A stretch of DNA of 64,000 bases, taken from the NCBI RefSeq assembly GCF_014697475.1, contig NZ_JACJRV010000027.1, positions 1-64,000 on the forward strand, written 5' to 3'. Each line of letters begins with the position of its first letter. The stretch's first letter is position 1. The notes under the pieces were generated by a model. It saw only the letters and a list, made by a program, of their open reading frames with translations. It made no database searches and was not told the DNA's origin. Both the position numbers and the translations under genes were made by a program. This DNA comes from Nostoc sp. FACHB-152 (lineage in GTDB: Bacteria > Cyanobacteriota > Cyanobacteriia > Cyanobacteriales > Nostocaceae). This document shows positions 8,518 through 33,817 of the stretch, in pieces.

Positions 8518-8615
8518 CAAATCCAAAATAACTATCAGACAATATTCAATTGTGACATCCTCTGTTTGGTAAATTTTTGGATGGCAAATTAATTGCAACT
8601 CTATCTACAACACTT

Positions 8616-9026
8616 ATGGACTGTATTCATTTAACCGATATTCGCTGCTATGGCTACACTGGCTACTTACCAGAGGAACAGGTACTAGGCCAATGGTTTG
8701 AGGTGGATGTGAAATTATGGTTAGACCTTTCTCAGGCTGCTGTGACTGATGCGATCGCAGATACTCTTGATTATCGCAGTGTGATTAGCTCGATTCAAAA
8801 TCTGGTGAAAACTTCTCAGTTTGCTTTGATTGAAAGATTAGCAGGTGCGATCGCTGACTCTATTTTGCAACAGAGCGATCGCGTCACGCAAGTTCAAGTC
8901 ATTGTCACCAAACCCGCAGCACCCATTCCTGATTTTGGCGGCAAAATTAGCATTGAACTCACTAGAACTAAAGTTAATTCTTACAGCAGTTTTCATCCCA
9001 ATGAGGTAAATTCCTCTAGCCTCTAG
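8616..9026 (+). CDS. folB: dihydroneopterin aldolase
   Basis: 136-residue enzyme of folate synthesis that converts dihydroneopterin to 6-hydroxymethyl-dihydropterin and glycolaldehyde. Visible signatures are LTDIRCYGYTGYLPEEQ with the pterin-binding region, LDYRSVISSIQNLV in the middle, and VTKPAAPIPDFGG with the conserved catalytic Lys near the end. ATG at 8616 matches the usual FolB length of about 120 residues better than 8577. The last residues (about NSSSL) are encoded by a CTCTAGC-type STRR repeat, so the C-terminal tail seems to have been extended by repeat DNA. Confidence 0.93.
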   Translation: MDCIHLTDIRCYGYTGYLPEEQVLGQWFEVDVKLWLDLSQAAVTDAIADTLDYRSVISSIQNLVKTSQFALIERLAGAIADSILQQSDRVTQVQVIVTKPAAPIPDFGGKISIELTRTKVNSYSSFHPNEVNSSSL

Positions 9027-9206
9027 CCTCTCGCTCCTAGCTACTTGTACTGCACTCAACCGAAAAACGCTGTAAATTTAAGTCAGTAGACCGAAAAGTT
9101 TATTTTGAAGTTTTGTTAAAAAAATTGCTGCTGATTGCATAAAAGCAAAGAGTCAACCGAGTAGTAGTCAGATTGAATTTCCATGCTTATTCAAAGGAGA
9201 GTTGAG

Positions 9207-9989
9207 ATGGTTACTAGTACTTACACTGTTGGTTCTTTAGGTGAAACACCCGTAGAGCGTAGTAATTACCTCGGCAATTACTTTACTCAAGACGTTTACA
9301 ACTTCAGTACCAGTGGTACAAACAGCATTAACCTGAGCCTACATAATATTACTGTTGGTGATGATGCTGATCTCAAACTGTATCAGGATGTTAACAGCGA
9401 TGGTAGCTTAGACTCAAGCGACACACTGATTTTAAGTTCTAGTAGAGGGAGTAATTTAGATGACGCAATCAACTATGTAGGTAGTGCTGGTAGTTACTTG
9501 GCTGTAGTTGATAAATACCTTGTAAGTGATAATGACGGTTTAAACTACGAACTTGACCTATCAGCTACCCCACAGTTTCCTTACTATACGTCAGCACCTA
9601 ACCTGTTGCCAAAAGAAATAGAGTTAGGCACTATTAGCACAAGCAATCAAACTGGCTCGCTAGGTGATAACAACACGGTTGATACCTATTTTTTCTCAGT
9701 AAGTAGCATTGATAGTCTAGAACTCAATGCATCCCTCACGGGATTAACTGGTGACGCTGATATTAGATTAATTCAGGATAACAACGGCAATCAAATAGTT
9801 GATTCTGACGAAATCCTTGCATATTCTAGGCTTGGTAGTAGTTCTAGCGAGTCTTTGAATTATGGCGTGAATTCAGGCGATTATTTTGTCCAAGTTTATC
9901 AATACTCTGGCAGTACCGACTACAACCTATCGATAACTACTTCATCAACTTTGCTACTTAATCAACTCTCACAGAACCTTATTGCATGA
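9207..9989 (+). CDS. PPC-domain protein with two calcium-loop-like motifs
   Basis: 260-residue protein built of two similar beta-rich halves of the bacterial pre-peptidase C-terminal (PPC) type: residues about 1-120 and 140-250. Each half has the pattern DVYNFS or DTYFFS, then a loop resembling an EF-hand or dockerin loop (DVNSDGSLDSSD; DNNGNQIVDSDE), then GSYLAVV or GDYFVQV. PPC domains usually hang on secreted peptidases or stand alone at cyanobacterial cell surfaces; no protease domain is present here. No classical signal peptide is visible. AAAGGAG lies before the ATG at 9207, which beats the upstream 9183 start. A strong hairpin terminator follows. Ca2+ binding is inferred from the spacing of Asp and Asn residues. 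Confidence 0.75.
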   Translation: MVTSTYTVGSLGETPVERSNYLGNYFTQDVYNFSTSGTNSINLSLHNITVGDDADLKLYQDVNSDGSLDSSDTLILSSSRGSNLDDAINYVGSAGSYLAVVDKYLVSDNDGLNYELDLSATPQFPYYTSAPNLLPKEIELGTISTSNQTGSLGDNNTVDTYFFSVSSIDSLELNASLTGLTGDADIRLIQDNNGNQIVDSDEILAYSRLGSSSSESLNYGVNSGDYFVQVYQYSGSTDYNLSITTSSTLLLNQLSQNLIA

Positions 9990-10025
9990 AAAAAGAGTTG
10001 TGAAAACTGAGTGAATAGACTAACT

Positions 10026-10066
10026 AAAAAGAGCGATTACTCATGGAAGTGGCGATCGCTCTTTTT
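10026..10066. terminator. bidirectional hairpin terminator
   Basis: AAAAAGAGCGAT (10026-10037) pairs with ATCGCTCTTTTT (10055-10066). The stem ends in a T run on the plus strand, 37 bp after the PPC gene, and in a matching T run on the minus strand. Confidence 0.75.
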
Positions 10067-10101
10067 AGGCTGATCCTACTTTCCTTCCTAGAAAATACTC
10101 T

Positions 10102-10375
10102 GATATCATGTCCGGCTGATCAGTTGTGATTAAATGTGTCTGTGCAGAAACAGCAAACCTTCTCCCCTCCTCCCCTGCCGTCTTAATGATAACGTGAGTT
10201 CGACCGATGATAAAGAACCCCTCTCCAAACCTCTCCCCGAAGCAGGGAGAGGCTTAGAAAGCTTAATTTTTTGTTCCTAACCAAGATATTAAAGCCCCTC
10301 TCCGAGACGGAGAGGGGTTGGGGAGAGGTTCATCGAACTCACGTTAATGATAAGTCTTTAACCGGACACGATATG
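10102..10375. repeat. dispersed repeat, copy 1, interrupted by a small insertion
   Basis: The outer ends form an imperfect inverted repeat: ATATCATGTCCGG at 10103-10115 and CCGGACACGATAT at 10362-10374. The body includes TGTGCAGAAAC, CTCCCCTGC and TGATAAGTCTTT. Removing the 10193-10343 insert and one target copy gives a unit of roughly 115 bp that matches, in inverse orientation, the copy at 53251-53348. No gene lies here (9990-10544). Confidence 0.7.
10193..10343. mobile_element. 151-bp MITE-like element with 10-bp target duplication
   Basis: The element begins CGTGAGTTCGA and ends TCGAACTCACG, a perfect 11-bp inverted repeat. It is flanked by direct copies of TTAATGATAA at 10183-10192 and 10344-10353. 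The uninterrupted repeat at 53.3 kb has a single TTCATGATAA at the same point. The inside holds a CTCTCC/GGAGAG hairpin also seen at 29680. It has no coding capacity, so it would need a transposase supplied in trans. Confidence 0.75.
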
Positions 10376-10544
10376 ACTGGAGGATTGCAAATATGACCAA
10401 ATTGGAAGAAGGTGACTAGAAATTTACTGAGTTTTTTCAAAAAGCAAATATGAGTTCTATATTAATAATTAATATTTAATAAATAAATGATGACAGGGTA
10501 TCTAAAAAAAATCCTGAATGCCCTTCTCTAAGGAAGTGGTGAAG

Positions 10545-11729
10545 ATGATATTTTCTTACGCTAGACCAACTCAACTGTGGTTAGAAATCTCCTCAAGACT
10601 CTCAGCAGAAGCTTGGGAACAAAGCCAGCATTTTTCTGACACCAGTAGTGTCTGGCGAGGATATTTGAATCAGATTTGCTACCAAGTTTTTTTCCCTTGG
10701 ATACAGGAAGAATATGCACCCAACGCAGCAATTTGGCTCACCACTTCTGCTCTACCTAGTGTATGGGAATTTGTGAATGGCACTGTTATTGTTATGGGGA
10801 CAAAAAGATTAATATTATTACCTACAGAAATAATTGACGAAGACGAATTACGAGTACCACAAGAATGGGTTGATATTCCTAGCTGGGTTGGAGATTATTA
10901 TTTAGCGGTGCAGGTAAATCTGCATGAGAAATCGCTGATAATTTGGGGTTATACTACCCATCAGCAATTGAAGCATGAAGGCAGATATGATCCCAGAGAC
11001 CGTAGTTATAGCTTGGACGGGGATGACATATTTCGAGATATGAGGGTTCTCTGGGTAGCACAGCAACTTTGCTCAGATGAGGTGACGCGAGAAGTGGTAG
11101 CCTCTTTACCTAGTTTACCAATGGCACAAGCTGAAAATTTAATACAACGTTTGGCTAGTCCTAACGTTGTGTTTCCTAGATTGGCAGTACCATTTAGTTT
11201 ATGGGGAGCGTTGCTGGAAAATGAAAATTGGCGATCGCGTCTTTATCATCAGCGTCTAAGTGCGCTACCATCTATACCAGTACTGGTGAATCTAAGCCGA
11301 TGGGGCCAGAATATCTTTGCAGATGGTTGGCAATCTTTAGCAGATTTATCATCGTCGTCAACAGGTTTAGCATACAGTTTCAGTAGCCTCAGAGGAGATA
11401 ATTCCTTTGAGGATGACCTAGTGCAGGGATGCAGGTGGATTGATTTACCATCAGGTGAGTCTATCGCACTATTGGTAAAATTAACAACACAAGCAGATAA
11501 CAGAATTATGGTGCGAGTACAGCTACATCCGCGTCCGGGAAACCGTTATCTCCCTGCTAATATCAAATTGATTTTGCTTTCCTTCTCCGGAAAAATACTG
11601 CAATATGTAGAGGCGGGAAGTGAAGATAACTACATTCAAGTACCAAGCTTTAAATGCTCATCAGAATTTCAGTTTAGTGTGAAAGTGGCATTACAGGAAT
11701 TTGAGATTACAGAATATTTTGTAGTTTAA
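10545..11729 (+). CDS. DUF1822 family protein
   Basis: 394-residue protein of a cyanobacteria-specific family of unknown function (DUF1822). Visible landmarks are TQLWLEISSRLSAEAWEQS at the N-terminus, a Trp-rich middle (VPQEWVDIPSWVGDYYLAVQV), WGQNIFADGWQSL and a C-terminal beta-rich region with VRVQLHPRPGNRYLP. No membrane segment or catalytic motif is seen. ATG at 10545 is preferred because AAGGAAGTGGTGAAG precedes it, whereas 10518 has no ribosome-binding site. Genes of this family usually sit with a CHASE2/CHAT protein and a sigma-70-like gene, exactly as here. A role in controlling the sigma factor is a guess. Confidence 0.8.
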   Translation: MIFSYARPTQLWLEISSRLSAEAWEQSQHFSDTSSVWRGYLNQICYQVFFPWIQEEYAPNAAIWLTTSALPSVWEFVNGTVIVMGTKRLILLPTEIIDEDELRVPQEWVDIPSWVGDYYLAVQVNLHEKSLIIWGYTTHQQLKHEGRYDPRDRSYSLDGDDIFRDMRVLWVAQQLCSDEVTREVVASLPSLPMAQAENLIQRLASPNVVFPRLAVPFSLWGALLENENWRSRLYHQRLSALPSIPVLVNLSRWGQNIFADGWQSLADLSSSSTGLAYSFSSLRGDNSFEDDLVQGCRWIDLPSGESIALLVKLTTQADNRIMVRVQLHPRPGNRYLPANIKLILLSFSGKILQYVEAGSEDNYIQVPSFKCSSEFQFSVKVALQEFEITEYFVV

Positions 11730-21299: not shown

Positions 21300-24200
21300 A
21301 TGACAAAGAGAAATCAGCCAGCATTCAAACATCGCACACTTGTTCTCTTTGTCAGTATGCTAGTTTCATCAGAGCTATTGATGGCGACAGCAACAGCTAG
21401 TATCAACATTGCTCAAAAGCCAACTCTTACTGCTCCAAATACCAGCCCTGAGAAACAAAGAGCCGCCACCAGAGGAAAACAACTGCTGCAAGAAGCGCAG
21501 AAACTATATGAACAGGGTACAGCAACCTCTCGACAAGAAGCGATCGCAAAATATGAAGCAGCATTAAAAATTTGGCGACAAATAGGCGATCGCAATTCTG
21601 AAGCCACAACATTATTAGCTATTGGTACACTTTACTATACGCAAAATGATAATCAAAAAGCGTTGACATATTTTCAGCAAGGGGTAACAATTCGCCGCGA
21701 ACAAAAAGACCGAATTGGCGAAGCTGTGATGCTTAATTCTGTTGCCAATGCTTACGCTAATTTAGGTCAGCCACAAAAAGCTTTAGAATTTTATAACCAA
21801 GCATTGCCATTATTTCGGGCTGAGAAACAACCCTTTTTTATTACTAACACTTTAATTGGTATTGGTGGAGTTTATTTTAATTCAGGTCAGACAAAGAAAG
21901 CACTAGAAGCTTATAATCAAGCATTAGTAATTCAGCGTGAGCAAAAAGATTTAGATGGACAAGCTGATACCTTGCAAGTTATTGGTATTGCCTATACTAA
22001 TTTAGGAGAACCACAAAAAGCTTTAGACATATTCCAGCAAGCACTAGAGATTCAACGGGCGAAAAAAGATTTAGGTGGAGAAGCTGATGCACTCAACACT
22101 ATTGGTTTAGTTTACTTATCTATTGGAGATGAGAAAAAGGCACTCTTAAACCTTAATCAAGCATTAAAACTACAACAACAAATCCAAGGTAATTTGTCTG
22201 GAAATGCCTTGGCATTTAACCTGAGCAAACAAGCTACGATATTGACTGCTATTGCTGGCGGCTATTCTTTTAATGAACCACCCAAAGCACTAAGCTACTA
22301 TAACCAAGCGCGATCGCTTTTGCAAAAAGCAGGCAGTCCCCAAGCCGAGGCAGAACTATTAGGGCAAGTGGCTCTAGTTTACGATAGGTTAGGTGAAAAG
22401 CAAAAAGCTCTTGATGTTTTAAATCAAGCATTAGTATTGCAACGTGGTACGAAAAATGGTGCGAGAGTTGCCTTCACCCTCGATACTATGGGAGGAATTT
22501 ATGCATCCTTGGGCGACTATCAAAAAGCCATCAATTTTTATAACCAAGCCCTAGATATTCAACGCCAAGTAAAAGATATTGCTGGGCAAGGAGATACACT
22601 CAAACATATAGCTTTGGTTTATAGTTTCCTCGGTGATTATAAGTTGAGTATTGCAACTTATAATCAAGTCTTAGAGACATTTAAAAATACAGGGGATCGC
22701 GATCAAATAGCGCAAACTTTAGATAATATTGGCAGTGCCTACCGTGCGTTAGAAAATTATCCCAAAGCTTTGCAATATTACAATCAAGCGCGGCAGGTAC
22801 GACGTGAACAAGGGAATCTAATTGGTGAAGTCAGTGCTATTAGTGGCATCGTTAGAGTTTACGAAGCTTTGAAAAATTATCCTCAAGCTTTGGATGCTGC
22901 TAACCAAATTTTGACGTTAGCACAACAAAAACAAAATAACTTTGCCGAAACTAGCGGCTATGCTTTCTTAGGTAGAGTTTATTTAGCAGCAGGTGATTAT
23001 CAAAAAGCCTTAGACTTTTCGCAAAAAGCTGCCACTGGTTGGCAAAAACTAGGGCAGAAAATTGCTGAAGCCAACGTTATTGGGAATGTTGCTAGAACAT
23101 ATAATGCTTTAAAACAACCACAACAGGCGATCGCAACTTCTAATCAAGAATTAAAATTGCGACAGAAAATTGGCGATCGCACCGGGGAAGCAGACACCCT
23201 GTATTATATAGCTCAGACAGAACGCGATCGGGGCAATCTCAACGCCGCCCGCAGCCAAATAGAAAACAGTATTAAAATCGTTGAAGATATCCGCACCAAC
23301 GTCACCAGTCAAGATTTGCGAACTGCTTACTTTGCATCGGTGCAGAAATATTACCAATTCTATATCGACCTGTTGATGCAGCTACACAAACAGCAACCAT
23401 CTCAAGGCTATAATGCTTTGGCATTGCAAGTTAGTGAACGTGCTAGGGCGCGGGGTCTTTTGGACTTGCTGACAGAAGCTAACGCAGACATCCGCCAAGG
23501 TGTAAATCCGAAGCTGTTGCAAACAGAACGCAACTTACAGCAACAACTCAATGCTAAAGAAAAGTTCCGCATTCAACTATTAAATGGAAACTATACCGAA
23601 AGTCAAGTTCAAAATTTAGATAAACAAACAGAAGAACTTCTTAAACAGTATCAGCAAGTTCAGGCAGAAATTAGAGCCACTAGTCCACGTTACGCGGCGT
23701 TGACACAACCTCAACCCTTATCATTGCAGCAAATTCAACAGCAAGTATTAGATGATCAGACCTTGCTTTTAGAATACTCCTTGGGAGAAGACCGTAGTTA
23801 TCTTTGGGTTGTGAGCAAAAATAGCATTACCAGTTACGAATTACCTAAACGTACCGATATTGAAATAGCCGTGCAGGAGTTTCGCAATGCCTTAACTACA
23901 CCATCCCAAAGAACTAGTATCTCAAAGACAGGCAAAACTGCGATCGCTCTATCAAAGATGATACTTGCACCCGCAGCCCAGCAACTCGGAAAAAAACGCT
24001 TAATTGTGGTTGGTGATGGTGCTTTGCAGTATGTACCGATAAGTGCATTAGCAATACCAAACAATCAAAACTATCAACCATTAATCACAACAAACGAAAT
24101 CATCACCTTACCCTCAGCCTCAACTATTGCCCTATTGCGCCAAGACATCAAAGGGCGAAAAAAAGCACCCAAAGCCATAGCTGTATTAGCAGACCCGGTA

Positions 24201-24899
24201 TTTTCCCCAGACGACGAACGTTTGAAAGGTCAACCATCAAATCGCCCGTCCATGACTCCAGACTTAGAAACTTTTGACCAGCAACAATTAGCACGTTCCG
24301 CCAGAGAAGCTGACATTAGCTTTGAACGCCTAAGTTTTACCCGCCAAGAAGCCGAACAAATTCTCTCACTGGTATCTAATAAAGAACGCAAGGAAGCTTT
24401 AGACTTTACTGCTAGTCGTGATATTGCCACAAGTCCAGAGTTAGGACAATATCAAATCATCCATTTTGCTACCCACGGCATCCTTAATAGTACGAATCCC
24501 GAATTATCTGGAGTCGTGCTGTCGCTGTTTGATAACCAAGGGAAACCACAAAATGGCTTTTTACGCCTCCATGATATTTTTAACCTAAGTTTGCCAGCAG
24601 AGTTAGTAGTTCTCAGTGCTTGTGAAACAGGCTTAGGTGAAGAAGTGAAGGGAGAAGGGTTAGTAGGTTTAACTAGAGGTTTTATGTATGCGGGAAGTCC
24701 GCGTGTGGTTGTGAGTTTGTGGAGTGTGGATGATGAAGCTACATCAGAATTAATGCAGAAATTTTATACCAATATGTTACAGAAAAATTTAAAACCTGCG
24801 GCGGCGTTAAGGGCAGCACAAATAGAAATGTCTCGTAATCAGAATTTTACTGCGCCTTATTATTGGGCTGCGTTTACATTGCAGGGCGAATGGAAGTAA
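21300..24899 (+). CDS. exported TPR-CHAT protein
   Basis: 1199-residue protein. The N-terminus has a signal peptide (LVLFVSMLVSSELLMATATA). Residues about 60-640 consist of some 14 tetratricopeptide repeats with near-perfect units such as ALEFYNQALPLFRAEKQP and GEPQKALDIFQQALEIQR. A coiled-coil linker follows (LQQQLNAKEKFRIQLLNG). Residues about 850-1195 are a CHAT caspase-like domain with His1059 in IIHFATHG and Cys1108 in VVLSACETG. The fold and dyad fit a cysteine protease, but family members have few known substrates. The TPR superhelix would bind a partner and gate the protease. A MITE begins one base after the stop codon and may shape the 3' end of the mRNA. Confidence 0.9.
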   Translation: MTKRNQPAFKHRTLVLFVSMLVSSELLMATATASINIAQKPTLTAPNTSPEKQRAATRGKQLLQEAQKLYEQGTATSRQEAIAKYEAALKIWRQIGDRNSEATTLLAIGTLYYTQNDNQKALTYFQQGVTIRREQKDRIGEAVMLNSVANAYANLGQPQKALEFYNQALPLFRAEKQPFFITNTLIGIGGVYFNSGQTKKALEAYNQALVIQREQKDLDGQADTLQVIGIAYTNLGEPQKALDIFQQALEIQRAKKDLGGEADALNTIGLVYLSIGDEKKALLNLNQALKLQQQIQGNLSGNALAFNLSKQATILTAIAGGYSFNEPPKALSYYNQARSLLQKAGSPQAEAELLGQVALVYDRLGEKQKALDVLNQALVLQRGTKNGARVAFTLDTMGGIYASLGDYQKAINFYNQALDIQRQVKDIAGQGDTLKHIALVYSFLGDYKLSIATYNQVLETFKNTGDRDQIAQTLDNIGSAYRALENYPKALQYYNQARQVRREQGNLIGEVSAISGIVRVYEALKNYPQALDAANQILTLAQQKQNNFAETSGYAFLGRVYLAAGDYQKALDFSQKAATGWQKLGQKIAEANVIGNVARTYNALKQPQQAIATSNQELKLRQKIGDRTGEADTLYYIAQTERDRGNLNAARSQIENSIKIVEDIRTNVTSQDLRTAYFASVQKYYQFYIDLLMQLHKQQPSQGYNALALQVSERARARGLLDLLTEANADIRQGVNPKLLQTERNLQQQLNAKEKFRIQLLNGNYTESQVQNLDKQTEELLKQYQQVQAEIRATSPRYAALTQPQPLSLQQIQQQVLDDQTLLLEYSLGEDRSYLWVVSKNSITSYELPKRTDIEIAVQEFRNALTTPSQRTSISKTGKTAIALSKMILAPAAQQLGKKRLIVVGDGALQYVPISALAIPNNQNYQPLITTNEIITLPSASTIALLRQDIKGRKKAPKAIAVLADPVFSPDDERLKGQPSNRPSMTPDLETFDQQQLARSAREADISFERLSFTRQEAEQILSLVSNKERKEALDFTASRDIATSPELGQYQIIHFATHGILNSTNPELSGVVLSLFDNQGKPQNGFLRLHDIFNLSLPAELVVLSACETGLGEEVKGEGLVGLTRGFMYAGSPRVVVSLWSVDDEATSELMQKFYTNMLQKNLKPAAALRAAQIEMSRNQNFTAPYYWAAFTLQGEWK

Positions 24900-25024: not shown

Positions 25025-25418
25025 TTCGTCACAAATGAGTTAGGCTTCTCTATGAATGAGTTCCCGTTCATAAGAAACTTGACAATGTTGGTCAATCGCT
25101 GTGTCTGCTTCTGGTTAGCAGTAGTTAAGTTTGATTTAATCAACACTCTCGGTTTGAAACAGTTCAATCACATCAGGAGTATGATGGGCGTGCATATTCA
25201 GAAGCCTCATCTTCCAGGGTAATTTTAGATTAGACTGCGCGATATCCTGCTAGATTTGCGATCGCTCGATGATACCACAGAGGATCGGTCTTAATATCTT
25301 TAACTATAAATATATAAGATGTATCTATGGTGGGCTAAAGTCTAGCCAGCAACAAAGTATTTTATTAGTAAATAAAGTAATATCTCTAACACCCCGACTT
25401 TTAATCACTTTTATATTA
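25025..25418. other. gene-free leader of the CheB/CheR hybrid gene
   Basis: About 390 bp. Short frames exist on both strands but match nothing I know. One HIP1 site lies at about 25258. No clear promoter was found. Confidence 0.35.
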
Positions 25419-28400
25419 ATGAACTCTAGGCGGTCAAAACCAACTCAGCCTCATACCCCTGACGAACAGCAACAGCCCAACCAAAATGAATTATTTCCGA
25501 TTGTCGGCATTGGCGCATCTGCCGGGGGATTAGAAGCATTTACACAATTACTCAGCCATTTGCCGACTGATACAGGTATGGGATTTGTGTTGGTTCAGCA
25601 CTTAAGTCCCGACCAAAAGAGTATGTTGGCGGAAATTCTGTCCCAGACAACCACCATGCCAGTAGTGCAAGTAAAAAATGGGATGGTAGTAGAACCAAAT
25701 CATGTCTATGTGATTCCCCCTAACGCCATAATGACGATCTCTCAGGGAAAGTTACAACTGAGTCCGCGTCCGAAAATTCGCGGTCAGATAATGTCAGTTG
25801 ATACATTTTTCTTTTCTTTAGCCCAGGAACGGGAAAGCAAAGCCATTGGTGTTGTATTGTCTGGGGGCGATGCTGATGGTGCTAAGGGGTTAGAAGCAAT
25901 CAAGGAAGCTGGCGGAATTACTTTTGCCCAGTGTCAAGACTCGGCACAAGTTAGTAGTATGCCGAATATGGCTGTGGCTTCTGGACAGGTAGATTTTGTT
26001 TTAACACCACAAGAAATAGGCAAGGAATTAGCCAACCTCAGTCGTCATCCTTTCGTTAGTCGTACTACCCCAGAAAAAGCTGCTGAAGTTATACCCGCAG
26101 ATGAGGATGCTATGACTACCATATTTAGTCTGTTAAAAGCGGCTACTGGTGTTGATTTTCATTACTACAAGCAAACTACCCTCAAGCGGCGCATCCTACG
26201 GCGGATGATTTTATCTAGGTTAGAGAGTTTAGAAGATTATGTGCGTTATCTTCAAGACCATCCGGGCGAAGTCAAAGCCTTGTATTACGATGTGCTAATC
26301 ACTCTCACCTTTTTCTTCCGCGACCCTGAAGCTTTTGAAGCTTTAAAAAATAAAGTATTTCCGATTATTACTCAAGAACAGTCTGGTAATTCTCCGATTC
26401 GGGTTTGGGTGGCGGGATGTTCCACAGGAGAAGAAGCCTACTCCCTGGCTATCTGCTTACTAGAATATTTGCACGAGCAGGGAATAAAAAAGCCTATCCA
26501 AATTTTTGCCACAGATATTAATGAGGTAGCTATTGAAAAAGCCAGACTAGGTATTTACAAGCACAGTCAATTAGTAGATGTCTCTCCCGAACGCCTCCAG
26601 CAGTTTTTTGTACCCGTAGACGGTGGCTATCAAATTAACAAGCCCGTGCGGGAATGCTGTGTTTTTGCTAGACAAAACCTGATTAGTGATCCGCCCTTTT
26701 CTCGGCTCGATCTCGTTACCTGTCGCAATGTACTCATTTACTTAGGTTCTGCTGTCCAAAAGAAACTGCTGCCTATCTTACATTATGGTTTGAAGCCAAC
26801 AGGCTTTTTGATGCTAGGCACGTCAGAAACAGTAGGCGAGTTTAGCGACTTGTTTGCACTGATTGACAAAAAGTATAAGATTTATGCCAACAAAATTTAT
26901 CCGACTGGGCTGAAGATTGAATTAATTCCTAACAAGCCCGTAGAAGTTGTCCACCCTACGCCATTAGTCAGCGAACAGGTTTGGAATGAATTAGAAATGC
27001 AGAAGGCAGCCGACCAAATTATATTGCAGCAATATGCTCCGGTTGGTGTGATTATTGACCATAATCTAGAAATTGTGCAATTTCGCGGGCAGACTAGCCC
27101 CTATCTGCAACTACCATCAGGCAGACCAAGCTTTAATCTCTTAAAAATAGCTAAACAAGAATTACGGTTAGAACTACGCACTGCTATTCACCTAGCCAAA
27201 AAGCACCAAGAAGCAGTCAGAAAAGAAGGCATAGAAATCAAAGACAACGAGCAAATCAAACTGGTGAGGATTGATGTTGTACCATTTTATGCTCTCCCCG
27301 ATAACACAAAAAGCTACTTTTTAGTTATGTTTGCCGAGACTGCCGCATCTTCTATCTTAAATTTAGCTGACGAGCAGCAAGCTTCCTCTTCAAGCACAAG
27401 CACTCGCAAAAGACGCAAAATTAATAACGAAAATGAAACTCAGCAACTCAAACAAGAGTTAGCCACAACTAAAGAATATCTGCAATCAATTATTGCAGAA
27501 CAACAAGCTACAAATCAAGACTTGAGAGCCGCTAACGAAGAGATTCTTTCTAGTAATGAAGAGTTGCAAAGCACTAATGAAGAATTAGAAACAGCTAAAG
27601 AAGAAATTCAGGCAACTAATGAAGAATTAAACACTATTAACGAAGAATTACAACGCCGTAACGTCGAGTCAACTCAAGTCAGTAACGATTTACAAAATCT
27701 CCTCAGCAGTATTAGTATCCCAATTCTCATGTTAGGAGGAGATTTACGCATTCGTCGCTTTACTCCAGTAGCAGAAAGAATCTTTAACCTAATTCCTTCA
27801 GATGTGGGGCGACCATTCAGTGATATTAATCACAACTTAAATATTCCTGACTTAGAACAACAGATTTTGGAAGTGGTACGCACACTCACCTTTAAAGCCC
27901 AGGAGGTACAAGACAACGAGGGACACTGGTATGATTTACGCATCCGTCCCTATCGCACCATCGATCACAAAATTGACGGTGCTGTCGTAGTGTTGGTGGA
28001 TATTAACGAACTCAAACGCAGTGCTAGACAAATCACAGCCGCGAGAGATTACGCCGAAGCAATTGTGGCGACAGTCCGAGAATCTTTAGTAGTGCTAGAT
28101 ACAGACCTAAAAGTAATTACCGCTAATCAGTTTTTCTACGAAATATTTCAGGTGACGGCAGAAGAAACAGAACAGCAACTAATTTATGATTTAGGCAATG
28201 GACAGTGGAATATACCGCAATTGCGATCGCTTTTAGAAAGCATCCTCTCCGAACAAAGCCAATTTCAAGACCTAGAAGTTGAGCATAACTTTGAGCATAT
28301 TGGGCAGAAAATCTTGCGGTTGAATGGTCGCAAACTCTCTCACATCCACGATATGGCGATGATTCTGCTTGTGATTGAAGATATTACCCAGCAAAAGCAG

Positions 28401-29621
28401 CTAGAAGCAGAACGGACTCAACTTTTGGCGCAAGAACAATCAGCCCGTGAAGCCGCCGAGAGAGCCAACCGCGCCAAGGATGAATTTTTGTCAATTCTCT
28501 CCCACGAATTGCGAAACCCACTCAATGCTATGCTTGGTTGGGCGAATTTGCTGCGAACGCGCCAACTAGAAACAGATGTAGTTGAGCAGGGATTAGAAGC
28601 CATTGAGCGCAGCGCCCAAGCTCAAGCGCATTTAATCAGCGATTTGTTAGATATTTCTCGGATTAGCTCTGGTAGGTTGCGGATGGATGCCCAACCAGTC
28701 GAGCTTGCAAAGATAATTGAAGCAGCGATCGCAGTTGTGCGTCTAGCAGCAGAAGTCAAAAGCATTGAAATTCAAACTCAGTTAGATACTACACCCAGAG
28801 CGATCGTTGGTGATCCCATTCGCTTACAACAGGTCATCTGGAATTTACTGTCTAACGCCATCAAGTTTACCCCAGTCAGAGGCAAAATTAAAGTCACACT
28901 TAAGTACACCAAAGTACTAGCACAAATCCAAGTGAGTGACACAGGCCTGGGTATACCCTCTGACTTCGTTCCTTATATTTTTGACCGCTTCCGCCAAGCC
29001 GATGGCTCGAAAACTCGCTCCAATCAGGGTTTAGGACTAGGACTGGCAATTGTCCGTCACTTGGTAGAACTTCACGGTGGTGTAGTTGAAGCCAAAAGCC
29101 CAGGTGTAGGTAAAGGCACAACCTTTACAATTAGTCTACCGCTACAAAAGATCCAAGGGCAAATTTCTGTAGTCCATAGTAGTCAATCATTGGTTTTTCC
29201 AAGACCAGAATTATCAACCCAAAACATTGCCTCACTCGAAGGTGTGCGAGTGCTGATTGTTGAGGACGAAGCAGATATCCGCCTTTTATTCAAGTTAGCC
29301 TTAGAAGAATACGGAGTCCAAGTCACAACAGTTGCATCAGCCAGTGCTGCACTATCAACGCTGATGGCAAACCCTAACAGCTACGACATACTTTTGTCTG
29401 ACATCGGCCTCCCCGGAGAAGACGGTTACTCACTAATTCGGCAAATTAGGGCGCTCGCTCCCGAACTCGGTGGGCAAATTCCCGCCGCCGCCCTCACCGC
29501 CTATGCTGGCGATGCAGAATACGCCGAAGCCTTAGCCGCCGGATACCAAATGCACATAGCTAAACCCATCGAACCCCCGCAATTAGTAGCTTTAATCGCC
29601 ACCTTGACTCAACGGATGTAA
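25419..29621 (+). CDS. CheB-CheR-PAS hybrid histidine kinase with receiver
   Basis: 1400-residue cytoplasmic signalling protein with no membrane segment. Domain order: CheB methylesterase at about 25-210 (IVGIGASAGGLEAF with Ser34, VLVQHLSPD, and the Asp in LSGGDADGAKG); CheR N-terminal and methyltransferase parts at about 220-490 (VWVAGCSTGEEAYSLA, FATDINEVAIEKAR); a long coiled coil rich in NEELQSTNEELETAKEEIQ; two PAS domains; HisKA with His1029 in ILSHELRNPLNAM; HATPase_c with NLLSNAIKF and GLGLGLAIV; and a receiver domain with the phosphoacceptor Asp in LLSDIGLPGEDG. ATG at 25419 begins the normal sequence; the longer frame to 25269 reads through probable leader. No chemotaxis genes are nearby, so it is more likely a stand-alone regulator than part of a taxis operon. 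Confidence 0.92.
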   Translation: MNSRRSKPTQPHTPDEQQQPNQNELFPIVGIGASAGGLEAFTQLLSHLPTDTGMGFVLVQHLSPDQKSMLAEILSQTTTMPVVQVKNGMVVEPNHVYVIPPNAIMTISQGKLQLSPRPKIRGQIMSVDTFFFSLAQERESKAIGVVLSGGDADGAKGLEAIKEAGGITFAQCQDSAQVSSMPNMAVASGQVDFVLTPQEIGKELANLSRHPFVSRTTPEKAAEVIPADEDAMTTIFSLLKAATGVDFHYYKQTTLKRRILRRMILSRLESLEDYVRYLQDHPGEVKALYYDVLITLTFFFRDPEAFEALKNKVFPIITQEQSGNSPIRVWVAGCSTGEEAYSLAICLLEYLHEQGIKKPIQIFATDINEVAIEKARLGIYKHSQLVDVSPERLQQFFVPVDGGYQINKPVRECCVFARQNLISDPPFSRLDLVTCRNVLIYLGSAVQKKLLPILHYGLKPTGFLMLGTSETVGEFSDLFALIDKKYKIYANKIYPTGLKIELIPNKPVEVVHPTPLVSEQVWNELEMQKAADQIILQQYAPVGVIIDHNLEIVQFRGQTSPYLQLPSGRPSFNLLKIAKQELRLELRTAIHLAKKHQEAVRKEGIEIKDNEQIKLVRIDVVPFYALPDNTKSYFLVMFAETAASSILNLADEQQASSSSTSTRKRRKINNENETQQLKQELATTKEYLQSIIAEQQATNQDLRAANEEILSSNEELQSTNEELETAKEEIQATNEELNTINEELQRRNVESTQVSNDLQNLLSSISIPILMLGGDLRIRRFTPVAERIFNLIPSDVGRPFSDINHNLNIPDLEQQILEVVRTLTFKAQEVQDNEGHWYDLRIRPYRTIDHKIDGAVVVLVDINELKRSARQITAARDYAEAIVATVRESLVVLDTDLKVITANQFFYEIFQVTAEETEQQLIYDLGNGQWNIPQLRSLLESILSEQSQFQDLEVEHNFEHIGQKILRLNGRKLSHIHDMAMILLVIEDITQQKQLEAERTQLLAQEQSAREAAERANRAKDEFLSILSHELRNPLNAMLGWANLLRTRQLETDVVEQGLEAIERSAQAQAHLISDLLDISRISSGRLRMDAQPVELAKIIEAAIAVVRLAAEVKSIEIQTQLDTTPRAIVGDPIRLQQVIWNLLSNAIKFTPVRGKIKVTLKYTKVLAQIQVSDTGLGIPSDFVPYIFDRFRQADGSKTRSNQGLGLGLAIVRHLVELHGGVVEAKSPGVGKGTTFTISLPLQKIQGQISVVHSSQSLVFPRPELSTQNIASLEGVRVLIVEDEADIRLLFKLALEEYGVQVTTVASASAALSTLMANPNSYDILLSDIGLPGEDGYSLIRQIRALAPELGGQIPAAALTAYAGDAEYAEALAAGYQMHIAKPIEPPQLVALIATLTQRM

Positions 29622-29922: not shown

Positions 29923-30540
29923 CTATTGCCTATTGCCTACTCCCTGTTCCCTGCTACTAGAAAATAATTTCTCAGATTCATCCTTTGAGTTTCTCGCAAT
30001 AACTAAACACTCATTTTGAACCTTGGTCAGCATTTGCTTAAAAGCAGGAGTGTAATTACCATCTTCATCGACAACTCTACGCAGAGTGTACTCCCCAGCC
30101 CTAGAAATGCCACCAAACCAACGATTTTTTCGTTGCCAAATATCTCCATTTGGAGAGTTAGCTTCTTTATGTATTGTGGCATCTACCACCCATTTAGGAA
30201 TTCTTATTCCTAAACCAAAAGGTATGAGTTGCCCATGCTGTAAACTTTCATCTATAAACTCAATTTTGTAAGTAAATCGAGTTAATTGAGATGAACGAAG
30301 TAATAGCCATCCGGCAATTGTGTTGTGAAAAGTCCACTGCAAAGGAGCAGAAACAGGTAGGACTAGAGTTTTATTTTGGCTGTCCCATTCTATGTTATAA
30401 AAGGTGATGCAATCATCTGGAAGTGGATTGCCATCCATATAGAAAACACCTTTGAGGACACTGGGTAAGTTCGTTTCTTTAATTGCTATCATCCATGTAG
30501 CAATATTGTCGAGTTGTTTTTTCTCGATTTTTCCAGTCAT
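29923..30540 (-). CDS. unknown protein in the lipoxygenase/P450 operon
   Basis: 205-residue soluble protein that I do not recognise. It has aromatic-rich strands (ITFYNIEWDSQNKTLVLPV, LQWTFHNTIAGWLLL) and no membrane segment or Cys motif. It starts 19 bp after the P450 stop and is therefore probably the third gene of the oxylipin operon. A lipid-binding or hydroperoxide-processing role is possible but rests on context only. The last about 8 residues (EQGVGNRQ) are encoded by STRR DNA, so the original C-terminus ended earlier and the tail is repeat-derived. Confidence 0.6.
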   Translation of the reverse strand: MTGKIEKKQLDNIATWMIAIKETNLPSVLKGVFYMDGNPLPDDCITFYNIEWDSQNKTLVLPVSAPLQWTFHNTIAGWLLLRSSQLTRFTYKIEFIDESLQHGQLIPFGLGIRIPKWVVDATIHKEANSPNGDIWQRKNRWFGGISRAGEYTLRRVVDEDGNYTPAFKQMLTKVQNECLVIARNSKDESEKLFSSSREQGVGNRQ

Positions 30541-30559
30541 TACCTGTTTCCTTAATCAC

Positions 30560-31906
30560 TTATTGTTTAGCAAAGCCTTGTAACACTAAATCATTAGGCG
30601 TAACGGCAGTCACCTTGGCAAAATCCCATTTGACTTCTGTAATTGAGTCCCATTTATACTTCTTGAAAAGATAGAAACAAAAAAGCTTAATTAAACCAAT
30701 CGACAAACTTCTACCAGGACAAACTCGCTCATGACCTTCACCATTCCAAGATAAGATATCAGAAAAATCTCTTGTAATATCAAAATTATCTGGATTTTGG
30801 TATCTATTGGCATCTCGGTTTGCTGTGAAGATAGAACCAAGTAAACGAGTGCCTGTTTGGAATGGACATTTTTGCCCCCCGATTTCAACTTCGCCTGAAT
30901 TAGTACTCAGTTGGCTAACAAATCTTACAGGTGGATAAAGACGAGCAGTTTCTAAGATTACTTTATAAAGGAGTTGGGACTGTTCGAGAGCATTTTTGTT
31001 AGGAGTTTCTTGACCATTCCATAAAGTATTTATCTCAGATACTACGTTGTTCTTTAAAGCAGTATCTAGGCATAAAACACCAATCACAGAACCTAACAGC
31101 CCACTTGTCCCAGCCGTTCCGGCAATATGAATCATATCGAAAATACTGTTAGCTATTTGGTGTTCGTTTAAACCATAGCTTGAACCTGTTTCTAAAAAAG
31201 ATGCCCATCTGGGAGATTGTTTATATTTTTCAATTAAACGCTGGCGATGTTTGATATTTGGTGCTGTTCTAAACGCCAGGAGATATTTGCTGATGAAGTT
31301 AGGCAAAGATGCGAGAGCCAGACCTTTAATATAAGCCTGTGATCCCTCAATTTCTGCTTCAGTTAATGATATTTGCAGAATTCCTTGGTGCAGTATTCCT
31401 AACAATATTTTTGGCAAATCGTTGCCAATATGTAATTGTCCTTGTTGAGTAGCTTTTGACAGATATTGATCGACTAAACCTGCTAAAACTTCTACTTGTT
31501 CTAAAGGATCTGGTAAAGCTTGCAATAATACAGCACGAACACCTGTGTGTTCATTGCCGTTGGTTCCCAAGCTGAGGGGATTGTTGAGTAAATAGCTAGG
31601 TGCTAAGATTCTGATGATACCTAAATCATTACCCCGGACTTGCGGCTCCACGTGCATTAGTTCCTTCACCTTGGTATGAGATGAGTGCATGATTGCGTGA
31701 TCTACCGCAAAATATTTATCCCCAATATTTTGCCAGCGAATATAGAGAAAGTCTTTCCAAGCATTGAGCATGATCAAGGCATCGCTGTAATATGCACGTA
31801 ACCTTAACAGCTTGCCAAATGGCGTATTATAGCCGACTTTCTCTAAGGTTTGGGCAAGTTTGATCTGGCGATCGTGGTTTTGGAGAACCTTTTCTTTGAG
31901 TTCCAT
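30560..31906 (-). CDS. atypical cytochrome P450
   Basis: 448-residue heme-thiolate protein with no membrane anchor. The heme loop is WNGEGHERVCPGRSLSIG with the Cys ligand near residue 396. The K-helix ExxR is ILETARLYPPV (Glu near 319). The I-helix, normally with an acid-alcohol pair for O2 activation, reads HIAGTAGTSGLLG and lacks the acid. Loss of that pair is a feature of P450s that rearrange fatty-acid hydroperoxides without O2 or reductase, such as CYP74 and related clans. The heme loop also lacks the canonical Phe (FxxGxxxCxG becomes WNGEGHERVC). It starts 18 bp after the stop of the lipoxygenase, a likely supplier of its hydroperoxide substrate. Confidence 0.85.
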   Translation of the reverse strand: MELKEKVLQNHDRQIKLAQTLEKVGYNTPFGKLLRLRAYYSDALIMLNAWKDFLYIRWQNIGDKYFAVDHAIMHSSHTKVKELMHVEPQVRGNDLGIIRILAPSYLLNNPLSLGTNGNEHTGVRAVLLQALPDPLEQVEVLAGLVDQYLSKATQQGQLHIGNDLPKILLGILHQGILQISLTEAEIEGSQAYIKGLALASLPNFISKYLLAFRTAPNIKHRQRLIEKYKQSPRWASFLETGSSYGLNEHQIANSIFDMIHIAGTAGTSGLLGSVIGVLCLDTALKNNVVSEINTLWNGQETPNKNALEQSQLLYKVILETARLYPPVRFVSQLSTNSGEVEIGGQKCPFQTGTRLLGSIFTANRDANRYQNPDNFDITRDFSDILSWNGEGHERVCPGRSLSIGLIKLFCFYLFKKYKWDSITEVKWDFAKVTAVTPNDLVLQGFAKQ

Positions 31907-31924
31907 AGGGTTGATGAGGTGAGT

Positions 31925-33817
31925 TTATATATTGATGCTTTGGGGAATTCTGGAGGGGAGAAGATACTCATAGGACGGACGGTGTAAGTTGCGTTGATTG
32001 ATGGTATCTTCTGTCTGTTGCAGATTTTCATTGAAGGCTTGCAACAAGGGTTTGACCTGTGGGTCTGTAAAGTATCCTTCTGGGTAATTACCAAGCTTGT
32101 TGTAATAAACAGAACCCAATAATGATAGAAGGTTGAGTTGCCTTTGTGCTTGATCTAAGGGTGGAAGTAGATTTAAGTAATCTTGCTCAGTCACTTCGTT
32201 TTTGAGGGTTGAGGCTGGCAAGTAACCTGCTAATGGTAACACAGGAGCGTATCCCATCAAATCTTTTTGCGGAAAGTTGACTGCCCCATGTTGGGCGCTG
32301 GCGGTGAAGATAATCAGAGTCACAGCTTCAGCTAAATATTCGCGTGTTTGAATACCGCCATTTTCACCAAAATCAGGTATTCGTCCCCCATCATAAGCTT
32401 GGGCTTCGGCTGCCCATGCTTGCAATGCTGCATCTTGTTGAATGTCTTTGTCTGTTGGGTAGTAAAGTTTGAGATAGTCTGATACCCACTGATGAATGGC
32501 ATTCCAAATTAACAGGGCATCATCCCGATAAGGATAAACAGGTAATAAGTTGGGATCATCTACGCCACGTTGCTTGAGTTGTTTTGGTAACATAGCGTTA
32601 TTAAACCCATAGCTTTGCAAACCGCGTACTGCTAAAACTCTAGCATTATCAACGGTAGATGAAAGCAGCCGATCAACTCCACCACCAGGAGCGATGAGGG
32701 CGCGTTGTGCAGCATCGTTAATTGCCAAGGTTCCCTCGAAATGTGGGTGTAATAAAATCCGCAGGGGATGATTGGGTGGTAGTTGGCGATAGGTTGTCAT
32801 CACGAAGGGGCCAATAAACAAGTGAGTTCGGCCTAAGTGGCTCACAGCTTCGTGGAAGTTGGCATCTGCTATTAAAACAACGGTTTTGGCAAATAACCAT
32901 GAGTATTTGCCAGAGTTAGGGGTAATAATGGGATAATCTGGGCCTGGTGTTTGACCGCATTGAATAGCTATAGGGCGCAGTAGGCGGTTTAGTTCTGAAC
33001 CTCTGGGTACGGCAAACAACGCAAAGGGAGCATAGAGATATTTTTGCTCCTTTGGGAAAGTACCGTTGATTGCACCGTCTAAAATTCCATAGTCTGTGAG
33101 GTATAGTCTACCTTCTTGCCCAGCAGCACTTAAGGAATCTTCACTCCCCATGACTGCTTGGTAATGTTCGTCTGTGACGGGGAAGCGATCGCTTAAACTT
33201 TCGACTCGTTTTATCATTAAGGGATTGAAGCCTGCTACTTGCATATAGGCAAATACTTCATCTTCTTGATAGGTGCTGGCGATCGCAGGTAGCGGAATTT
33301 CTGGCAGTAACTTTTCGTAATCTTTGAGGTTGGTTACATGACCTCTAGGTTGGTCTTTATATAATAAATTAACAACTCTGTTTAGGGAATCTCGCAAAAT
33401 TGTGATTCCACCTTCCTTAAATAGAGAAAACAACAAATCGTCAACTTCCCTAAAATCTTTAGATATGCTTTTAATTAAAAATTGGGGAAGAATTTGTAAC
33501 AGTCTGGCAACTACACCAACCTGGAAGGGTATGGCTCCTTTGATTAAAGCTTCTAAAATAAATCTTTTGACATCATCCCGAACAGACGGAGAACCTTGAT
33601 TCCCCCTATTGACAATCAATGTATTAATAAAAATTATACGTACTACCTGTGCCAGCAAACAAAACCACGCACTAGTGAACTGTTCCTGATCAGGAAGCTC
33701 ATCCACCATCGCAATTGCCGGAATATGAGTGTAGTTGTATTGATATTGCTGTCTAGCTACCGCCAAGCTATCAGTGATTTGTGAATTTACGGCATTATTT
33801 GGTGATGAAGTAGTCAC
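31925..33817 (-). CDS. lipoxygenase
   Basis: 630-residue non-heme-iron dioxygenase that adds O2 to polyunsaturated fatty acids. The iron ligands are visible: two His in AVSHLGRTHLF, a third in FTASAQHGAVNF and the terminal Ile of the protein (SINI). The HPLRILLHPHFEGTLAIN core motif is intact. There is no PLAT domain, which makes it shorter than plant enzymes and like other bacterial ones. The start codon is GTG at 33817 with AAGGAG six bases upstream. It is the first gene of a three-gene operon with the P450 and an unknown protein. Products are probably hydroperoxides of linoleic or linolenic acid; position specificity cannot be read from sequence alone. Confidence 0.93.
   Translation of the reverse strand: MTTSSPNNAVNSQITDSLAVARQQYQYNYTHIPAIAMVDELPDQEQFTSAWFCLLAQVVRIIFINTLIVNRGNQGSPSVRDDVKRFILEALIKGAIPFQVGVVARLLQILPQFLIKSISKDFREVDDLLFSLFKEGGITILRDSLNRVVNLLYKDQPRGHVTNLKDYEKLLPEIPLPAIASTYQEDEVFAYMQVAGFNPLMIKRVESLSDRFPVTDEHYQAVMGSEDSLSAAGQEGRLYLTDYGILDGAINGTFPKEQKYLYAPFALFAVPRGSELNRLLRPIAIQCGQTPGPDYPIITPNSGKYSWLFAKTVVLIADANFHEAVSHLGRTHLFIGPFVMTTYRQLPPNHPLRILLHPHFEGTLAINDAAQRALIAPGGGVDRLLSSTVDNARVLAVRGLQSYGFNNAMLPKQLKQRGVDDPNLLPVYPYRDDALLIWNAIHQWVSDYLKLYYPTDKDIQQDAALQAWAAEAQAYDGGRIPDFGENGGIQTREYLAEAVTLIIFTASAQHGAVNFPQKDLMGYAPVLPLAGYLPASTLKNEVTEQDYLNLLPPLDQAQRQLNLLSLLGSVYYNKLGNYPEGYFTDPQVKPLLQAFNENLQQTEDTINQRNLHRPSYEYLLPSRIPQSINI

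Follow-up and report, generated by a model that had tools for sequence, protein, structure and literature searches.

The products of lipoxygenases (LOXs) are fatty-acid hydroperoxides. In plants these pass to a cytochrome P450 of family CYP74 (allene oxide synthase, AOS; hydroperoxide lyase; divinyl ether synthase; epoxyalcohol synthase), which lacks the canonical acid-alcohol pair, and a small β-protein, allene oxide cyclase (AOC), stands third in the route. CYP74s require neither O2 nor redox partners (PMC10813956), and plant AOC has a β-barrel core (PMC6218421). The fate of LOX hydroperoxides in cyanobacteria is known for few systems, and in those we found the partners are catalase-related (PMC11719350, PMC13049297). 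They are the catalase-LOX fusions of Anabaena and Acaryochloris and the 10S-dioxygenase (10S-DOX) of Nostoc punctiforme with its catalase-related lyase. Fungal DOX-CYP fusions (linoleate diol, epoxyalcohol, and allene oxide synthases) join a fatty-acid dioxygenase to a self-sufficient P450. Here we describe a row of three minus-strand genes in Nostoc sp. FACHB-152, encoding a LOX, a P450, and a small protein that we call X, found in a 64,000-nucleotide stretch of contig NZ_JACJRV010000027.1 (the whole stretch analyzed, hereafter the window). We propose that the genes form a cyanobacterial oxylipin operon, in which a LOX hydroperoxide would be rearranged by a reductase-free P450 and the product bound or cyclized by X, and we judge this proposal to be probably, though by no means certainly, correct.

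The locus resembles the plant route in having a LOX, then a P450 without the acid-alcohol pair, and a small β-rich protein in third place; it differs in that the P450 is not a CYP74, X has no match above cut-off to AOC or any other Pfam family, and the genes lie in a bacterial operon. With the catalase-related systems it shares a two-step metabolism of hydroperoxides by a dioxygenase and a heme protein, but the heme partner here is a P450 encoded by its own gene and the window LOX carries no catalase-related domain. The fungal fusions use a heme dioxygenase, whereas here a non-heme LOX and the P450 are separate gene products accompanied by the extra protein X. Among bacterial and cyanobacterial lipoxygenases (PDB 8x8f, 5med, 4g32), the window LOX belongs to the same family and has the same iron ligands, and it is linked to a P450 and to X. 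No description of a cyanobacterial LOX-P450 operon was found in the open-licence literature searched, which is not proof of absence, and a published survey of P450s in cyanobacteria (PMC7014017) has, by a term search, neither "lipoxygenase" nor "hydroperoxide" in its main text. Relative to that literature, the P450 lineage and the third protein are new, and the module puts forward three defined genes as a candidate, in which the P450 step lies outside CYP74 and one protein family has no annotation. Should the P450 prove to be a hydroperoxide isomerase, oxylipin cascades built on a LOX and a P450 would have arisen more than once, and cyanobacteria would offer the plant LOX-AOS-AOC route in a small form open to testing.

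The three-gene unit and its conservation

The genes of the unit are as follows.

31925..33817, minus strand: lipoxygenase (LOX), 630 aa, GTG start (PF00305, E 4.9e-61; best PDB match 8x8f; iron ligands)
30560..31906, minus strand: type-1 acid-less cytochrome P450, 448 aa (PF00067, E 1.9e-13; P450 fold matches; ExxR and Cys)
29923..30540, minus strand: protein X, 205 aa, family without annotation (β-rich, weakly lipocalin-like model)

The intergenic gaps are 18 and 19 bp, as an earlier sequence-only reading of this DNA had reported. That reading also offered the three genes as a candidate unit, which would have been undermined had they not been neighbors in any relative. Among 388 genomes sampled from the order, 21 have a P450 of the window's kind (type 1; E ≤ 1e-10, window included), 20 of them in family f1 and one in f15. 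Here f1, f2, f15, g5, g33, g110, and g133 are anonymous family (f) and genus (g) labels; f1 is the window's family and looks Nostocaceae-like from named records. Six named records carry the gene as well (Nostoc sp. S4, Nostoc sp. PA-18-2419, Cyanocohniella sp. LLY, Calothrix parasitica NIES-267, Rivularia sp. MS3, and Nostocaceae MO_167.B47). X lies downstream of the type-1 P450 on the same strand in 27/27 loci, and the LOX lies upstream in all 26 whose contig reaches far enough; at the 27th (L048) the contig begins inside the P450. Order and strand are thus kept in 26/26 loci with enough sequence, and LOX, P450, and X form a conserved unit. The spacing is not always tight, ranging from small overlaps to ~709 bp between P450 and X and up to 591 bp between LOX and P450 (mechanical ORF ends). 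When open reading frames (ORFs) with 110 aa or more were clustered across the flanks examined, no other neighbor recurred in more than 8 of the 27 loci; this most recurrent one is sensor-kinase-like and stands at variable distance and strand. At one locus (L041, genome G077), two tandem type-1 P450 genes, 7029-8486 and 8566-9918, lie between LOX and X.

The window LOX scores 207.5 bits against PF00305, far above the cut-off of 23.6, has this as its sole Pfam domain, and matches 8x8f at E 1.3e-123. The presence of the His ligands and the terminal Ile, claimed from the sequence beforehand, holds for the window copy, in which H322, H327, H510, N514, and I630 are what we take to be the iron ligands by comparison with soybean LOX-1 numbering.

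32837..32854, minus strand: LOX His322..His327 iron-ligand pair (HEAVSH), read from the sequence
32276..32290, minus strand: LOX His510 and Asn514 ligands (HGAVN), read from the sequence
31928..31930, minus strand: LOX C-terminal Ile630 ligand (PQSINI in 26/26 operon LOXs)

The full set of His/His/His/Asn/C-terminal Ile ligands is kept in 25/26 operon LOXs. The position that presumably corresponds to the Coffa site by LOX numbering is A370, and it is Ala in 26/26 operon LOXs. An Ala at this site goes with an S-configured hydroperoxide, and because of Ala370 the product of the window LOX is probably S-configured.

The P450 and protein X

Three elements define the P450 in the window.

31103..31129, minus strand: I-helix motif H260-IAGTAGTS, with Ala265 at the acid position and Gly266 at the alcohol position (alignment; codons read)
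30941..30952, minus strand: ExxR motif E319..R322 (sequence and alignment)
30719..30721, minus strand: heme-ligand Cys396 in SWNGEGHERVCPG (sequence and alignment)

ExxR and the heme-ligand Cys are invariant in 28/28 type-1 sequences, which places them in the P450 superfamily. Their I-helix reads HIAGTAGTS or a near variant, with Ala (26/28) or Leu (2/28) at the acid position, Gly at the alcohol position in all 28, and Thr (T267 in the window) directly after it in all 28. The earlier claim that Cys and ExxR are kept and the acid is lost therefore stands but is too narrow: the alcohol is replaced as well. An AGx[DE][TS]-type motif is present in 22 of the 25 other P450s used as a control, a convenience set gathered by similarity. 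The acid-alcohol pair that marks O2-activating monooxygenases is found in 0/28 type-1 and 0/20 type-2 sequences, type 2 being a second kind of P450 encountered in other genomes. By their residues, LOX and P450 thus keep their metal ligands, and the P450 lacks the pair.

Over 193 aa, type 2 shares ~22% identity with type 1 (BLAST 4e-11, small set; hhalign probability 95%). Its I-helix reads IA[GA][LM]QGPLH, with Gln at the acid position in 20/20 and Pro at the position of T267, and its Cys loop is longer than that of type 1. The two types have 24 invariant columns in common, including H120, E319, R322, and C396, over the 24 sequences aligned (alignment A5, 24 of 48 P450s). The Pfam P450 model scores type 2 below its cut-off (E 0.12), and its putative identity rests on the similarity to type 1 and on the ExxR and Cys motifs. 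CCR4-NOT chains, the sole PDB matches of a four-sequence type-2 profile (A3, E 0.004-0.008), were taken as chance. In PMC13049297, plant AOS is printed with FNTwGGMKI and a fungal 9R-AOS with IGGVGTP, and by our reading neither contains an acid-alcohol pair; the fungal motif, at SRS4, is superficially like the type-2 IAGLQGP.

A P450 tree was built from 13/28 type-1 sequences, 7/20 type-2 sequences, 25/26 other ORFs (one spurious ORF dropped), and two plant CYP74s. Types 1 and 2 split from the 25 other P450s and the CYP74s at 100/99, in a tree with long branches and only plant CYP74s sampled. The type-2 branch is very long, L048 stands apart from the other type-1 rows with weak support, and the placement of CYP74 is weak, as an alignment cut at the CYP74 start misplaced the CYP74 N-terminus and the rows were realigned. 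A grouping with monooxygenases that carry the acid-alcohol pair, which would have spoken against the sequence-only reading, did not appear, and the window P450 falls outside the 25 other P450s sampled. We regard the P450 as a lineage of its own that may function in the manner of CYP74, rather than as a CYP74 itself. All of the 50 listed Foldseek matches of the type-1 model are P450s, and 1049 chains match at E ≤ 0.001. A plasmid homologue search with query P0002 returned only four haloarchaeal P450s, ~25% identical over 35-41% of the query; the same search with P0001 and with a type-2 P450 gave no match.

Protein X was called unrecognized at the outset, and it remains so: searched singly and as 27- and 33-row sets (the latter alignment A4, 33 of the 47 X sequences), it finds nothing above cut-off in Pfam or NCBIfam and nothing among PDB sequences. 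A match to DUF6807 (E 0.076) and further matches of single members (E 0.016-0.33) were taken as chance, and AOC is not among the Pfam families listed for 33 members. The 47 sequences have 22 invariant residues in common, including D36-G37-N38, C44, W52, W135, R137, and N139. In an AF2 model (pLDDT 87.5), eleven strands are accompanied by a few helices. Foldseek places nitrophorins first (best nitrophorin 7, E 2.6e-3, prob 0.97, TM 0.33-0.35), with other lipocalins also among the matches, the leukotriene-binding LTBP1 at rank 36; nothing reaches E 0.001. A binder of hydrophobic ligands and a cyclase would both fit the gene context.

Other arrangements and co-occurrence

The association of P450, LOX, and X extends beyond the type-1 trio. 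In genus g33, a type-2 P450 is followed by X on the same strand in 15 loci, 14 of which have an intact X at 51-401 bp; at the remaining one (L186, G264, 7733-9266) X is interrupted by 970 bp and the upstream type-2 P450 is full length. No LOX match was found in the fetched flanks of these 15 loci, and all 15 genomes have a LOX elsewhere. The third and fourth ARRANGEMENTS are the type-2 P450-LOX pair of g5 and the X-LOX neighbors of g133. In g5, the gene immediately downstream of the type-2 P450 encodes, in 7/7 loci, a LOX of 548 aa that shares ~40% identity with the window LOX; the gap is 21 bp in six and 17 bp in one. Among 217 genomes of the window's family, 7 have this pair, and these belong to a single genus. 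In g133, X and LOX are neighbors with no adjacent P450 in two genomes, each of which carries a type-2 P450 on a different contig. In one of them (L183, G297, 8994-10647), X and LOX are separated by two ORFs that look transposase-like by eye. In the other, G305, the LOX copy beside X is broken (L182, 5829-6995), another LOX lies on contig C212, and the type-2 P450 (L224, 8133-9584) has an in-frame interruption. Both P450 subtypes thus associate with LOX and X. X alone occurs in g110, with two copies each in G364 and G352, both LOX-positive and G352 also with a type-2 P450. The two copies in each genome are divergent (L170/L184 in G364, L171/L185 in G352), one by peroxiredoxin-like genes and the other by a fabF-like gene (by eye), and neither a LOX nor a P450 was matched in the fetched flank. 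Within G364 and G305, the LOX nearest the window LOX (65% and 63%, respectively) has no P450 or X alongside.

A LOX tree of 54 rows (47 non-operon LOX loci and 7/26 operon LOXs) places the operon LOXs (7 rows) and the type-2-linked LOXs (3 rows) in separate clades. With the latter fall 16 g33 rows (27-row clade, 100/99), 13 of them from type-2/X genomes; of the 15 such genomes, the LOX of G335 was not fetched and the second LOX of G302 was not read. Either P450 and LOX came together on two or more occasions, with differing subtypes of both partners, or an old association gave rise to the pairs by co-evolution; by either history the repeated pairing speaks for function.

In co-occurrence, which had been suggested as a check, the link of X to LOX emerged as one-sided. 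In the phylum set (386 genomes), X occurs in 15 genomes, intact in 13, and LOX in 54; all 13 with intact X are LOX-positive. In family f2 (61 genomes, 32 with LOX), an intact X in 18 and a near-full-length type-2 P450 in 21 (20 without interruption) are likewise confined to LOX-positive genomes. The 29 LOX-negative f2 genomes have no intact X or P450, only a broken X in G153 and G332 and a P450 remnant in G250. A random draw would give these patterns with probabilities of 2e-12 (X in the phylum), 3.6e-7 (X in f2), 1.1e-8 (the P450 in f2), and 0.0022 (the P450 within g33), values that ignore phylogeny and overstate significance. Fragmentary or broken X copies were seen at L069 (G153), L187 (G332), and L070 (G282), with no LOX found in G153 or G332.

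These patterns bear on whether the genes are neighbors through inheritance alone, with no common pathway. Of the trio loci in sampled genomes, all except one lie in a single cyanobacterial family, as inheritance would have it, and ten f2 genomes with a LOX have neither of its two partner genes. Against this, the trio stays constant while the flanks differ from locus to locus, four separate arrangements exist, and in f2 intact P450 and X occur only where a LOX is found; we regard this explanation as very hard to sustain. Another possibility is a device for clearing lipid peroxides, in which LOX and P450 dispose of polyunsaturated fatty acids and hydroperoxides from membrane damage and X sequesters toxic fatty acids, with no signal or defense product. 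The patchy distribution and the broken copies would suit such a device, as would the surroundings of the trio, in most of which no gene for export, regulation, or a downstream enzyme is found again and again. A LOX that makes hydroperoxides is, however, an odd first gene for detoxification, and we consider this idea highly improbable.

The proposed pathway and its alternatives

In the pathway that we favor, the LOX would oxidize a polyunsaturated fatty acid (linoleic, α-linolenic, or a lipid-bound form) to a hydroperoxide; the P450 would take this as both oxygen donor and substrate and yield an allene oxide, epoxy alcohol, hemiacetal, or diol, with no O2 or reductase; and X would bind the unstable or hydrophobic product and carry it or steer its cyclization or hydrolysis. 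The conserved module is real, and a pathway joining LOX, P450, and X is well supported; from its residues and partners, the P450 may be expected to use hydroperoxides without a reductase, and we infer what it might release and what X might do. The sequence-only proposal of an oxylipin pathway is now supported more strongly than that reading could show, through the trio, the type-2 pairings with LOX and X, the X-LOX neighbors without a P450, and the co-occurrence with LOX. Its likening of the P450 to enzymes that use hydroperoxides survives in part, in that the acid-alcohol pair is gone; the P450 is not a CYP74, and the reductase-free chemistry is a deduction.

Several observations weigh against this pathway. 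Membership in CYP74 takes >40% identity to members (PMC10813956), and the P450 is 23.2% and 24.3% identical to two plant AOS chains over ~150 aa (BLAST). It has AGTAGT in place of the NxxGG I-helix motif, without the axial Asn, and the Cys loop SWNGEGHERVCPG as opposed to the long loop WSNGPETETPTVGNKQCAGK of two plant CYP74 chains. A recent review (PMC13049297) argues that some enzymes of this sort do without the axial Asn of plants, as fungal AOSs and thromboxane synthase have Thr or nonpolar residues there. In sequence, type 1 resembles ordinary P450s at least as much as CYP74; profile and fold searches put ordinary P450s on top, with CYP74A2 at 2.6e-5 and peroxygenases at 2.2e-6 to 4.5e-5, CYP74 is absent among the 50 best fold matches, and the type-1 model is of low confidence (pLDDT 68.4). 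Some P450s without the full acid-alcohol pair are still monooxygenases, and photosynthetic ferredoxin is plentiful in cyanobacteria. The lipocalin likeness of the X model is a weak lead. One operon LOX (L029, G342, 8679-10598), otherwise full length, has Gln in place of the first ligand His, H322 in window numbering (NIQEAVTHL). X was not found in the three g5 P450-LOX genomes sampled in the phylum set, and four other g5-like LOX loci (L133, L140, L143, L144) have no P450 in the fetched flank. The ten LOX-positive f2 genomes mentioned above, seven of them in g33, have no intact X or near-full-length type-2 P450, and LOX-positive genomes include a broken X (G264), a P450 fragment (G373), and a LOX with only an X fragment (G282). 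Three g33 LOXs from genomes without P450 or X sit inside the type-2-linked clade, and the one LOX read from G302, a type-2/X genome, sits outside it; because the G302 LOX and these three genomes misfit a strict pairing by LOX clade, our confidence in the pathway is a shade lower than it would otherwise be.

In one alternative, the P450 would be an ordinary O2- and ferredoxin-dependent monooxygenase that further hydroxylates or epoxidizes the LOX product, with photosynthetic ferredoxin as reductant and X as a carrier. The closeness of type 1 to ordinary P450s over CYP74 (PDB, fold, BLAST) and T267 beside the alcohol position are on its side. Both the acid and alcohol positions are, however, replaced in both subtypes, type 2 has Pro at the T267 position, and the P450s are paired repeatedly with hydroperoxide-making enzymes. 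The earlier observation that no ferredoxin or reductase gene is nearby is borne out, in that a Pfam scan of 12 flanking ORFs (not every small ORF was scanned) reported no such family; as evidence it is weak in a cyanobacterium, where a ferredoxin could act on the P450 in trans. We consider such a monooxygenase unlikely. Less likely still is a peroxygenase of the CYP152 kind, by which a second fatty acid would be hydroxylated with H2O2 or a lipid hydroperoxide as oxidant. The profile matches include fatty-acid peroxygenase/CYP152 chains, and the loss of the acid-alcohol pair would agree with such an enzyme; CYP152 ranks no better than many monooxygenases, and the LOX partner points to the LOX product as the oxidant. 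In CYP152 an I-helix Arg-Pro serves carboxylate binding; the type-1 AGTAGTS has no such Arg-Pro, and CYP152 membership was rejected.

A bolder form of the proposed pathway would make it a convergent bacterial counterpart of the plant jasmonate entry, in which a LOX, a non-CYP74 allene oxide or epoxyalcohol synthase, and a new small β-rich family that captures or cyclizes the epoxide lead to a stereodefined cyclic oxylipin signal or defense compound. We offer this as a possibility that is tempting but doubtful.

In the window, a 1450-aa CheB-CheR-PAS-histidine kinase-receiver hybrid (25269-29621) adjoins the operon, and a 1199-aa protein with TPR-CHAT domains is encoded at 21300-24899. Five of the 10 flanking ORFs in one Pfam scan have no family. 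A promoter and terminator scan was uninformative: it gave 7 and 4 sites, where shuffled sequence gave 11.7 and 3.6. The window's own genome contains a second, fragmentary LOX match (G000:C23:12687-12962) within a 185-aa frame.

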